From Singulisphaera sp. (GTDB lineage Bacteria; Planctomycetota; Planctomycetia; Isosphaerales; Isosphaeraceae), in assembly GCA_027451445.1 (NCBI GenBank), contig DAIDJG010000589.1, forward strand, positions 1 through 38,338: a stretch of 38,338 nucleotides of DNA, in the 5' to 3' direction. Position 1 is the stretch's first letter. Each line of letters starts with the position of its first letter. Shown one piece after another: positions 18,696 through 22,033 of the stretch. The translations under genes were made by a program, and so were the position numbers. The notes beneath the pieces are model-generated. The model worked only from the letters and a program-made list of their open reading frames with translations, did no database searches and was not told the DNA's origin.

Positions 18696-20474
18696 ATGAT
18701 CTCCACCGCGCGACTCTGGAAGAGCGTGGGAGCGTTGGCACTGGGCGGCGCCTTGCTGTCCGGCGGCCTCGCGGCTCGCGCCGCCGATGCTCCGCCGTTA
18801 TCCCAGCAACTCGCCGCGCTCGGGCGGCAGGCCCTTCAGCAGGGCCACACGGATCAAGCGAGAAAGTTCTACCGTAAAGCGCTGGAGCTCGATCCGCAAA
18901 ACGGCGAGGCCCGTCGCGCGCTGGCCGGAAAGGGGGGCGTGCTCCGAGTCGCACTCCAGGATCCCGCCGCCAAGCCCGATGACGCCAAGCCCGACGACGC
19001 CAAGCCGGACGATGCCAAGCGGGCCGACGCCAAACCGGACATGCCCGCGGAACCCGCTGACGGTGCCAAGCCGGATGCACCCGCGAACGATGCGGACGCT
19101 CCCAAGCCGGAGGCCCCGGCCGCGGACGCAATTCCCGCCGACGGCAAACCCCGCGAAGCGCACGCGACCCTCGAAGAGGACGAGCGCCTTGCGGAGGTGC
19201 GCCGGCAGCAGCTCGTGACCGACGTCGAGCAGCGCCTTCAGTTGGCCCATGACCTGGTCGCGAAGGGTGAGCCCGCAGGCGCGTTGAACACGCTGCGACT
19301 GGCCCAATCGCTGGTTCGCAGCTCCCAGCAGGTCCCGAAGGCGACGATCGACGACCTGTCCCGACGGATCGAGGCCCAGATCCTCTCAACCGTCCGGGCC
19401 GAGGAGCGGATCGATGCTCAACGCGCTGAGGCGCTTCGGAAAGAGGCACTCGCGGAGCAGCAACTGCGGGCCCTGGACGTGGATCTCCGCAACCACGACA
19501 CCGTCAATGCGATGATGATCCAGTTCGACAGCCTCATCGCTCAAGGGATCTACAACGTCCTCTACAACGGCGGCACTGGCGACATCCTCGCCGCAACCGC
19601 CCCGTTTATCGACGCGCGTCTGCTGGCGCAGAAGGCGCGGGCCATCGAACCCCAGAACCCCACTCCCCGCGCGGGAATCTTCACCGCGTCAACCGAGGGC
19701 TTCCTCGCCCAGGCGCTGGCCTTCGAGGAAATCAAAGAATACCGCTTCATGCTGACCCTGCAGGACGTCGACCGCGGCGCGGTGCCGTTCCCCGACACGA
19801 TCACGATCGAGTACCCCGAAGCCGAGTCGTGGCGGTATCTCTCCGAGAAACGGATCAAGCGCTACGGCAAAGCCGTCGACCTGCTCGACCGCGACCCGAA
19901 AACCAAGGGCATCCTGGCCAAGCTGGATGAGCCCCTCTCGATGTCGTTCCCGAACGAGACGCCACTCGAAGACGTGCTGAAGTACATCAAGCAGGCGACC
20001 CAGGGTCCCAACGACACCGGCATCCCCATCTACGTCGATCCGGTCGGCCTCCAAGAGGCCGAGAAGACGATGACGTCGCCGGTCCAGTTGGACCTGGAAG
20101 GCGTGCCTCTCAAGACAACCCTCCGCCTTCTCCTGAAGCAGTTGGGCCTCACCTACACGGTCAAGGACGGCATGCTGACGATCACCTCCGAGTCGTCCAG
20201 CGACCAGCCGACCGAAATCCGCGTCTACCCCGTGGCTGACCTTGCGATCATCCCCATGTCCCTGATGGGTGGTGGCATGGGTGGCGGTAGAGGCGGTATG
20301 GGCGGCGGTATGATGGGCGGTGGTATGGGTGGTGGTATGATGGGCGGTATGGGCGGCGGTATGGGCGGTATGATGGGCGGCATGGGCGGCGGTATGGGCG
20401 GCATGGGTATGATGTCCGTACCGCCCGAAGATCCGGACGCCACCGACGGCTTCAGTCAAAAAAAAAGCAACTAG
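18696..20474 (+). CDS. Exported TPR / STN-like domain protein with Gly-Met-rich tail (first frame of an interrupted gene)
   Basis: A 592-aa protein in its own frame. Residues 1-~30 are a signal peptide. A TPR hairpin lies at ~37-70 (GHTDQARKFYRKALELDPQNGEARRAL), then a repeat-rich acidic linker (KPDDA repeats, ~92-150) and a helical, Gln/Ala-rich region. Residues ~403-500 resemble a secretin/TonB short N-terminal (STN) module: a PLSMSFPNETPLEDVLKYI segment and a VPLKTTLRLLLKQLGLTYTV segment followed by a beta strand. Residues ~523-573 are almost pure Gly/Met. The frame ends SQKKSN at a run of nine A residues, and the next frame continues without a stop to 21832. The ATG at 18696 has GGGAG about 9 nt upstream. 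A role in the cell envelope is inferred from the signal peptide and STN-like module. Confidence 0.82.
   Translation: MISTARLWKSVGALALGGALLSGGLAARAADAPPLSQQLAALGRQALQQGHTDQARKFYRKALELDPQNGEARRALAGKGGVLRVALQDPAAKPDDAKPDDAKPDDAKRADAKPDMPAEPADGAKPDAPANDADAPKPEAPAADAIPADGKPREAHATLEEDERLAEVRRQQLVTDVEQRLQLAHDLVAKGEPAGALNTLRLAQSLVRSSQQVPKATIDDLSRRIEAQILSTVRAEERIDAQRAEALRKEALAEQQLRALDVDLRNHDTVNAMMIQFDSLIAQGIYNVLYNGGTGDILAATAPFIDARLLAQKARAIEPQNPTPRAGIFTASTEGFLAQALAFEEIKEYRFMLTLQDVDRGAVPFPDTITIEYPEAESWRYLSEKRIKRYGKAVDLLDRDPKTKGILAKLDEPLSMSFPNETPLEDVLKYIKQATQGPNDTGIPIYVDPVGLQEAEKTMTSPVQLDLEGVPLKTTLRLLLKQLGLTYTVKDGMLTITSESSSDQPTEIRVYPVADLAIIPMSLMGGGMGGGRGGMGGGMMGGGMGGGMMGGMGGGMGGMMGGMGGGMGGMGMMSVPPEDPDATDGFSQKKSN
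18972..19031 (+). repeat. Four tandem 15-bp units encoding KPDDA-type repeats
   Basis: Units of the form aagcccgaygacgcc repeat at 18972, 18987, 19002 and 19017 with a few substitutions, followed by a partial fifth. They encode a disordered acidic linker in the host protein. Such arrays can change length by replication slippage. Confidence 0.8.
20263..20415 (+). repeat. Gly/Met-coding low-complexity repeat
   Basis: Short units of the type atgggcggyggt repeat throughout, encoding MGGG and MGG blocks with a single Arg. This is the C-terminal tail of the first frame of the interrupted gene. The methionine content could allow metal binding or oxidation sensitivity, but this is speculation. Confidence 0.85.
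20458..20466 (+). other. A9 slippery tract at the frame junction
   Basis: Nine consecutive A residues followed by G. In the first frame the codons are caa aaa aaa agc aac tag, so a stop comes within 20 nt of the tract start. Slipping by -1, or adding one A in the transcript, gives aag caa cta gag and enters the frame that is open to 21832. Tracts of nine or more A are known substrates for transcriptional slippage, and A AAA AAA is also a possible -1 ribosomal slip site. A weak G5/C5 hairpin (20488-20492 with 20505-20509) lies 22 nt downstream. An assembly indel in the homopolymer is the main alternative. Confidence 0.7.
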
Positions 20475-21832
20475 AGAAAGCCACGCAGGGGGCGTTTGGT
20501 AACTCCCCCGGTCGGACCTCCAGCCCGGGACTGGGCGGCAACTCGCCGTCCGGTCCCGGTGCCGTTTCCGGGGCGGCTAACAAGGCGGGCAAACCGGGCC
20601 GAGACGCGCTTCCAGCGATCCGTGGTGCAGCTCCTGCCGAAGCGCCCAAGGGCCTTATCCCTATTCAGGGTGGCCGGGGCAATGTCGCCGGAGCTCGCCC
20701 TGCGCACATCAGTCCTTGGAAATTCTGGTCAGACTACTACAAATCCAACCGCCATAAGCCAAGCGCCAAACAATTCAAAGATCCCGAACTCCAGGAGCTG
20801 AAGGACCTTGCCGAAACATTGCGGCTTCTGAACGCCAACAAAAAACACGCCGACGTTCAGGCCGCTTTGACGGCCTATATGCAAAATCGACCAAAGATGA
20901 TTCAGCCGTGGATGTACGATGCGCTCGCACAGTCGATCAAGTTGAACCGCGGCAGGGAGGAAGACGTCAAGCTATATCTTGGCTACGCAGCGGACGCAGC
21001 GAAGATCAGCAAGAACCCCACCTATCTCGTCAGCGCGGCGGACATGCTTTTTCTCAACGGTGACTACGGCCGTGTCGGACCGTTGCTCGATGAAGCCATG
21101 GTCATGGTGCCGCATGAAGCCAATCCGATGATCATGTCGCTCAATCTAGCTCTGAAAACAAAAGATCCCAAGCGGATGGCCGACTCCGCCGAGAAACTGC
21201 TCGCCCTGGGCTGGCCGGGGCAAGACGACCGCGTGCGAGGCGACACCCGGCGCATGGTGGAAGCGCTGGCCAAGTCCCTCCGCGAAGGGGACCGCTCCCA
21301 CGAAGCCGACGAGCTGCTCAATCACCTCGCCGAGTCCGAGGCACGCGATATCTACATCCGCCTCACGTGGCAAGGTGACGCCGGCTTCGATCTCGTGGTG
21401 GACGAACCGTTCGAAGCCACGGCCCGCTACAGCGCGCCTCGCACCGTGCTTGGCGGCTCCATCATCAAGAGCGGGTACGGCAAGCACCCTGAAGACGTCT
21501 ACGTCTGTCCTCGTGCCTTCGACGGCGAGTACGGAATTCGGATTCAAACGCTCTACAACAACCCGGAGAAGCCAGCGTCGAACGTGACGCTGGAGATCAT
21601 CCTGCACGAAGGAACCGCACAGGAGTCGAAAGAGAAGCGCGTCATCACTGCGAAAGGGGATGAGACCGGTCCGATTGTCGTGAAGCTCGCCGGCGGGCGC
21701 CGCAAAACGACGCTACCCTTCATCACACCGAGGTTCGTGGTCCCGCACCAGATGGCTGACCCCAAGCCCGGTACGCCCAAGGCCAAGGACGCGCCGAGCC
21801 AGGCGAAGGGAAACAAGCCGGAATCGCGGTGA
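20465..21832 (+). CDS. Downstream part of the interrupted gene: TPR-like region and beta-rich C-terminal domain
   Basis: This frame is open continuously from within the A9 tract and encodes 455 residues. A Gly/Pro/Ser-rich linker runs to about 20710. A conserved-looking segment follows (SPWKFWSDYYKSNRHKP), then helical repeats resembling TPRs (~20790-21350), and a beta-rich C-terminal domain with RLTWQGDAGFDLVVDEP and DVYVCPRAFDGEYGIRI, ending in a Lys/Pro tail. No ATG or GTG occurs in this frame between the tract and ATG 20879; the only candidate before that is TTG at 20819, which would cut off the conserved start. I therefore read it as the second half of the 18696 gene, joined by slippage or split by an indel. 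The total would be about 1,047 aa. Its partner on the other strand is dnaB, convergent. Confidence 0.72.
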   Translation, partial: KQLEKATQGAFGNSPGRTSSPGLGGNSPSGPGAVSGAANKAGKPGRDALPAIRGAAPAEAPKGLIPIQGGRGNVAGARPAHISPWKFWSDYYKSNRHKPSAKQFKDPELQELKDLAETLRLLNANKKHADVQAALTAYMQNRPKMIQPWMYDALAQSIKLNRGREEDVKLYLGYAADAAKISKNPTYLVSAADMLFLNGDYGRVGPLLDEAMVMVPHEANPMIMSLNLALKTKDPKRMADSAEKLLALGWPGQDDRVRGDTRRMVEALAKSLREGDRSHEADELLNHLAESEARDIYIRLTWQGDAGFDLVVDEPFEATARYSAPRTVLGGSIIKSGYGKHPEDVYVCPRAFDGEYGIRIQTLYNNPEKPASNVTLEIILHEGTAQESKEKRVITAKGDETGPIVVKLAGGRRKTTLPFITPRFVVPHQMADPKPGTPKAKDAPSQAKGNKPESR

Positions 21833-21874
21833 GCCGCGTTACGGCTCAAAGTGACGGGATTGGATCACGGATTC

Positions 21875-21985
21875 ATGGCAGATGGCAGATGCAAGATGGC
21901 ACATGAAGAATGACTCATAGACAAGCGACGCAAAGCGATCCGACTTTCGCATTAACGCCACCGTTCTTCATCTGCCATCTGCCAT
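21875..21985. repeat. 17-bp inverted repeat between convergent genes
   Basis: atggcagatggcagatg (21875-21891) and its exact reverse complement (21969-21985) flank a 77-nt spacer that also contains a paired atgaagaa/ttcttcat (21903-21910, 21964-21971). It lies between the convergent stops at 21832 and 22034. It could fold in the RNA of either strand and act as a transcript-end structure, or be a repeat element. Confidence 0.7.
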
Positions 21986-22033
21986 CCGTTCTTCCAGGAC
22001 CGTCGTCCTGCCCGCACCAGATCAGGCTTCCGT

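Follow-up and report, generated by a model that had tools for sequence, protein, structure and literature searches.

A conserved nine-adenine tract splits an exported-protein gene of Planctomycetia and is a probable site of programmed transcriptional slippage

Among the closest described systems, dnaX of Thermus thermophilus undergoes transcriptional slippage at a run of nine A's (A9) (PMC1088944, PMC5009743), and conserved A9 runs are likewise found in the insertion-sequence genes of Deinococcus and others (PMC1088944). A longer run, A11, is the site of transcriptional slippage in tssM1 of Citrobacter rodentium, where both protein forms, as well as the ratio between them, are needed (PMC4256274). 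Moreover, Baranov et al. regard a nine-A run whose length is conserved among homologues as very likely to reflect purposeful transcriptional slippage (PMC1088944). Our literature searches yielded no reported planctomycete case of either slippage or programmed frameshifting; GeneTack (PMC3711429), which treats the subject, covers only two planctomycete species.

Here, we analysed a gene within a 38,338-nt stretch of DNA (the window), which belongs to a 10.9-Mb genome assembled as 622 contigs. The gene is interrupted at an A9 tract, and its parts are arranged as follows in window coordinates.

18696..20474, + strand: N-terminal (N) ORF of 592 aa, beginning at ATG 18696 and encoding the short product (sequence and Pfam).
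18696..20474, + strand: order of modules within the N ORF, i.e., a signal peptide, then a TPR, an STN-like module, and a Gly/Met-rich tail (sequence and Pfam).
18810..18926, + strand: TPR, residues 39-77 (Pfam TPR_2 at 27.2 bits and TPR_14 at 27.1 bits, both above the curated cut-offs).
20082..20186, + strand: STN (secretin/TonB N-terminal)-like stretch, residues 463-497 (Pfam STN, E=5.9e-4, which falls short of the curated cut-off).
20262..20417, + strand: Gly/Met-rich tail lying 5' of the tract (sequence; fused homologues are Gly-rich at the equivalent place).
20458..20466, + strand: slippery A9 tract, read in the zero frame as CAA AAA AAA AGC (sequence).
20472..20474, + strand: TAG stop of the N frame, five bases past the A9 (sequence).
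20465..21832, + strand: continuation in the -1 frame, 455 residues, part of the full-length product only (sequence).
20819..21340, + strand: conserved helical TPR-like region of the C-terminal (C) part (AlphaFold2 helices, Foldseek, and TPR_14 in homologues).
21350..21688, + strand: conserved beta-rich domain with the motif W.G..D.DL.V.EP...GG (alignment, eight strands in the model, and a weak DUF2135 match).

At its end the N frame reads TTC AGT CAA AAA AAA AGC AAC TAG, and the -1 frame remains open between 20291 and 21832, straight across the tract. The split and its -1 continuation, which the original prediction had described from the window alone, are thus real. Also borne out by the sequence is the claim that the second frame has no ATG or GTG start before 20879; its earliest ATG lies at 20879 itself, no GTG is found upstream of this in the frame, and a TTG occurs at 20819. 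Adding a single A to the A9 would join the two parts into one protein, as had been foreseen, though we compute a length of 1,045 aa for it and not the ~1,047 aa originally given. The arrangement is more than a chance one, as the whole 10.9-Mb genome contains no more than about 28 different A/T runs of at least nine, and among 30 A/T-run places examined there, the A9 at 20458-20466 was the one place where two long ORFs are convincingly joined. Two further places in the same genome (L083 and L084) were considered as A9/T9 slippage sites, and as weak candidates neither was convincing. At L084 (C71), a T9 lies within an open frame of 221 codons, about 7 codons short of its end, with another frame open beyond it, and no homology evidence was found for this as a second slippage site. 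Separately, by eye only, we saw an inverted repeat 3' of the gene at 21873-21995 (catggcagatggcagatg ... catctgccatctgccatcc), which is perhaps a REP-like element or a terminator region.

With regard to the domains, the modules proposed earlier for the N part stand, the TPR by Pfam above cut-off, the STN-like module only weakly, and the Gly/Met-rich tail by its sequence. In NCBIfam, residues 418-513 gave a partial match to Amuc_1098, a family of type IV pilus outer-membrane proteins, but this was weak and far below cut-off. A secretin pore domain is absent in Pfam, and so the likeness to secretins does not go beyond the weak STN-like stretch and the partial NCBIfam match. A von Willebrand A domain (VWA_3) was detected in the N parts of one member of the second split family (described below) and of two fused homologues, with E-values down to 5e-16, and is not in the shorter N part of the window. 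AlphaFold2 modelled the N part poorly (pLDDT 45) and the C part with modest confidence (pLDDT 63.5), the latter as TPR-like helices followed by a beta-rich domain with eight strands. No Pfam match above cut-off was obtained for the C half of the window protein. In Foldseek, its neighbours were generic TPR proteins only, such as MamA and LapB; TPR_14 was matched in the C part of 8 of 14 homologues, while DUF2135 (PF09906) appeared weakly in three of the 14 (E >= 0.017, below the curated cut-off) and gave no match in the window protein. Taken with the alignment of homologues, the model and its TPR neighbours support the TPR-like and beta-rich regions first suggested for the C part. By inference, the likeliest role is that of an exported scaffold or adhesion-type envelope protein with a short and a long form.

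The C part was found in 57 of 59 close genomes, 44 of 45 genomes of the family, and, at the level of the class, 386 of 397; outside the class, matches to it were weaker or partial only, and mostly lay within long open frames. In the window's own family (f1, probably Isosphaeraceae), every species with a readable junction has the identical anatomy, one A10 species excepted, and in a second family (f2, probably Planctomycetaceae) nearly all species share the split, with the genes of both families broken at an equivalent architectural place. In six further families whose genes were read completely (f3, f4, f5, f7, f22, and f23, of which we infer f3 to be Gemmataceae and f5 Pirellulaceae), a single ORF without an A run, mostly of 1,240-1,620 aa, encodes both the N and the C part, from which it follows that the two halves are one protein there. 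The comparison with homologues that had been put forward as a check on the split therefore came out in its favour, as these related families and two A10 species carry both halves in one frame. As side observations, a single assembly (G041, family f6) has its N and C parts in different frames without an A run at L061, for which an indel, an error, or another type of junction remain open alternatives, and single in-frame stop codons were reported within the C-domain match in G020, G389, and G140.

This breadth bears directly on whether the interruption is merely an assembly or sequencing error, or the mark of a pseudogene. Homopolymers are indeed error-prone, and the 622-contig state of the assembly could be held against it, but the identical A9 split is common to 143 species of 67 genera, closed genomes among them, and the C part persists across the class as described. 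Hence, the indel, real or of assembly, that the original prediction had kept as its alternative is rejected; we give error or pseudogene almost no credence and treat it as ruled out, for the family, by the recurrence of the split. Since 143 of the 149 related species examined share the A9 break, it looks, on sequence evidence, like a deliberate route to two proteins from one gene and not a sequencing mistake.

Our junction sample comprised 149 distinct genomes from 67 genera, i.e., 44 from f1 (21 genera) and 105 from f2 (46 genera). Because the search accepted runs of at least seven A's, lengths of 7, 11, and 12 were detectable, yet none of these was met among the 149 junctions, in which the counts of A8, A9, and A10 were 4, 143, and 2, respectively. 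At least one A9 member is present in each of the 67 genera. In the two A10 species (G065 at L042 and G164 at L165), both frames are fused into one, and their congeners have A9 (or A8); in the four A8 species, the run is always followed by G. The alignment columns flanking the run mostly have a commonest base at 30-70%, as against 100% for the nine columns of the run, the latter by construction in A9 rows. Nor is the run a matter of codon preference, as AAA accounts for just 22% of nearby lysine codons in f1 and 42% in f2. Such constancy is also what weighs against phase variation, in which DNA mutation between A9 and A10 would switch cells between the short and long proteins. Homopolymers do serve as contingency loci elsewhere, and the two A10 species with fused frames speak for it. 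A contingency locus, however, would show many lengths, and here two families keep to nine in 143 of their 149 sampled species, with no run-length polymorphism of that kind among close relatives and with consensus assemblies nearly always in the off state. We thus consider phase variation very improbable.

While its length is constant, the position of the A9 relative to the codons is not. In f1, phase 1 prevails (n=41, with n=2 in phase 2), and in f2, phase 0 (n=79, with n=9 in phase 2 and n=5 in phase 1). Nor is the direction of the shift fixed, for a +1 shift is required with the A9 retained in genus g45 (G084, G143, and G260 at L145, L197, and L198) and, outside it, in the single species G075 (L171) and G292 (L204). 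Two of these five cases rest on single assemblies; G239 and G369, where frames were called automatically at contig edges, were excluded from the +1 count, and automatic misassignments of frame at L065 and L136 were resolved by hand. Beyond the run, the N-frame stop follows shortly in nearly all species, at a genus median of 5 nt, and the third frame is closed at a genus median of 18 nt versus a background of 93.5 nt (off-frames of the linker), this distance being shorter than the genus's own background in 62 of 65 genera.

Programmed slippage of RNA polymerase on the A9, giving a short and a long protein from one gene, is in our judgement the probable explanation, albeit one for which there are no transcript or peptide data. 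We put transcriptional slippage first because the length of nine is kept over three codon phases. Moreover, both directions of shift, including that of the +1 cases, are open to a slipping polymerase but not to a ribosome shifting by -1; the third frame would be used by transcriptional slippage alone, so its early stop points the same way; and a codon-based -1 mechanism needs only seven in-phase A's, not nine. Those features of such slippage that can be judged from sequence are satisfied, namely an A/T homopolymer of about 9 nt at a frame change within a coding region, with its run length conserved in homologues and independent of codon phase and shift direction. As the criterion of Baranov et al. 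for a nine-A run of conserved length is also met, the reading of purposeful slippage is strengthened.

According to this proposal, RNA polymerase on nine A's would sometimes realign and yield transcripts with one A more, and less often those of other lengths. On the unslipped A9 mRNA, the ribosome would stop nearby and release the 592-aa exported short protein, whereas on the A10 mRNA it would read the next frame and make the 1,045-aa protein, which additionally carries the TPR-like region and the beta-rich domain of the C part. What can be read from the sequences themselves is that the gene is split, that its A9 is conserved, that homologues exist with both parts joined, and in which direction the frame has to shift. 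That slippage occurs, that it is mainly transcriptional, in what ratio the products arise, and whether both are relevant are all inferred. As for the suggestion made at the outset that slippage yields two products, it gains support from the recurrent A9 split and the fused homologues, though the slippage itself and the accumulation of both products remain an inference.

Apart from the run, we considered candidate RNA signals. When windows on either side of the run were scanned for a stimulatory structure, no peak recurred consistently, and control windows were equally strong in places. Strong hairpins downstream of the run are found in some genomes only, notably in genus g9, where four f1 species have strong-looking inverted repeats and three of the four rank with the most stable hairpins predicted. 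Located about 15-55 nt past the A9, the g9 hairpins reach -25.4 (L052), -34 (L051), and -25 (L053) kcal/mol over 60 nt; their stem sequences vary between species with the pairing kept, and a similar inverted repeat is visible by eye at L050.

These signals matter for programmed -1 ribosomal frameshifting, whereby the mRNA has nine A's throughout and two tRNA-Lys slip back by one base on A_AAA_AAA, so that both proteins are made by the ribosome. A slippery heptamer of the X_XXY_YYZ type is indeed present, as every A9 junction contains A_AAA_AAA in any phase and the four A8 species retain A_AAA_AAG, one of the motifs that work most efficiently in E. coli (PMC4066793). In addition, -1 is the shift needed at most junctions, and some downstream hairpins, in particular the inverted repeats of g9, fit ribosomal frameshifting better. 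Left unexplained by it, however, are the two surplus A's that never vary, the constant run length over three codon phases, and the A9 retained with a +1 shift, nor does it require an early stop in the third frame. An upstream Shine-Dalgarno-like element is not enriched (14 of 134, compared with 18 in a control stretch), no downstream structure emerged as shared by the families, the z-scores did not surpass those of some control windows, and the best heptamers without stimulators attain only about 0.3% in E. coli (PMC4066793). Ribosomal frameshifting as the explanation thus appears unlikely to us, yet it is the foremost rival and cannot be dismissed, and the two kinds of slippage may act together. 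That slippage of either kind yields the full-length protein is firmer than the choice between them.

Alternatively, there might simply be two genes, with the N ORF complete in itself and the C part translated independently by reinitiation. Homologues with two separate genes, each with its own start, had been named beforehand as what would refute the slippage reading, and this case was met in 1 of about 150 homologues. In that exception, f2 species G277 (L116), which was omitted from the 149 junctions, what looks like a separate signal peptide precedes the C part. The C part is solitary there, with the A9 run in frame, and we see it as a natural gene fission. Elsewhere, a C-frame ATG or GTG falls within -30 to +40 of the N stop in only 17 of 136 A9/-1 junctions, so reinitiation is no general solution. 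Counting further against independent translation are the late first ATG of the window's C frame, the single ORF of other families, and the lack of an export signal in a C part made alone, and we find two separate genes scarcely credible.

Turning to the age of the split, a C-domain tree of 171 sequences showed f1 and f2 to be each monophyletic (support of 1.0 and 0.98, respectively) but not sisters, with fused families between them. Either the A9 split is ancestral to the class with later fusions, or it has two origins at an equivalent place just past the Gly-rich tail. Later fusion is feasible, as one inserted base suffices (G065 and G164). Building on transcriptional slippage, we can suggest, tentatively and with more doubt than confidence, that an A9 slippage element has been kept since the Planctomycetia ancestor, fused in other lineages, and would set the short-to-long ratio of a secreted scaffold protein, being selected for its length and not for its codons or shift direction.

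If slippage at the A9 is real, few conserved cases of programmed slippage in non-mobile bacterial genes would be as broad, with 67 genera sampled, and gene callers are likely to split the gene or lose half of it in these genomes. Moreover, the natural variants (three phases, a +1 genus, A8, A10, and fused relatives) are a ready-made test of RNA-polymerase versus ribosomal slippage, and can also help to address what cells gain by retaining an envelope protein in two lengths.

When set beside the known systems, the planctomycete gene resembles Thermus dnaX in having an A9 within a cellular gene, alternative frames that stop soon, and two proteins sharing their N part. The proteins are unrelated, however, and the outcome is reversed, since in Thermus it is slippage that leads to the short product, the long one coming from unslipped mRNA, whereas here the unslipped mRNA would give the short. 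In tssM1, likewise, the templated frame stops just past the A run and an extra A restores a full-length envelope protein, but its run is A11 and has been reported from C. rodentium and Yersinia, while the planctomycete A9 spans two families. Insertion-sequence genes share a conserved nine-A run between two ORFs and differ as mobile elements, the planctomycete gene being chromosomal and, across its class, present in 386 of 397 genomes. To E. coli dnaX and its A_AAA_AAG, there is a likeness in the A-rich heptamer and the -1 shift; in contrast, we found no shared stem-loop or Shine-Dalgarno stimulator at the planctomycete junctions, and it is the run length, not the codon phase, that is conserved. 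The mechanism is therefore of a known kind, and what is new is the gene family, its breadth, and its apparent age.
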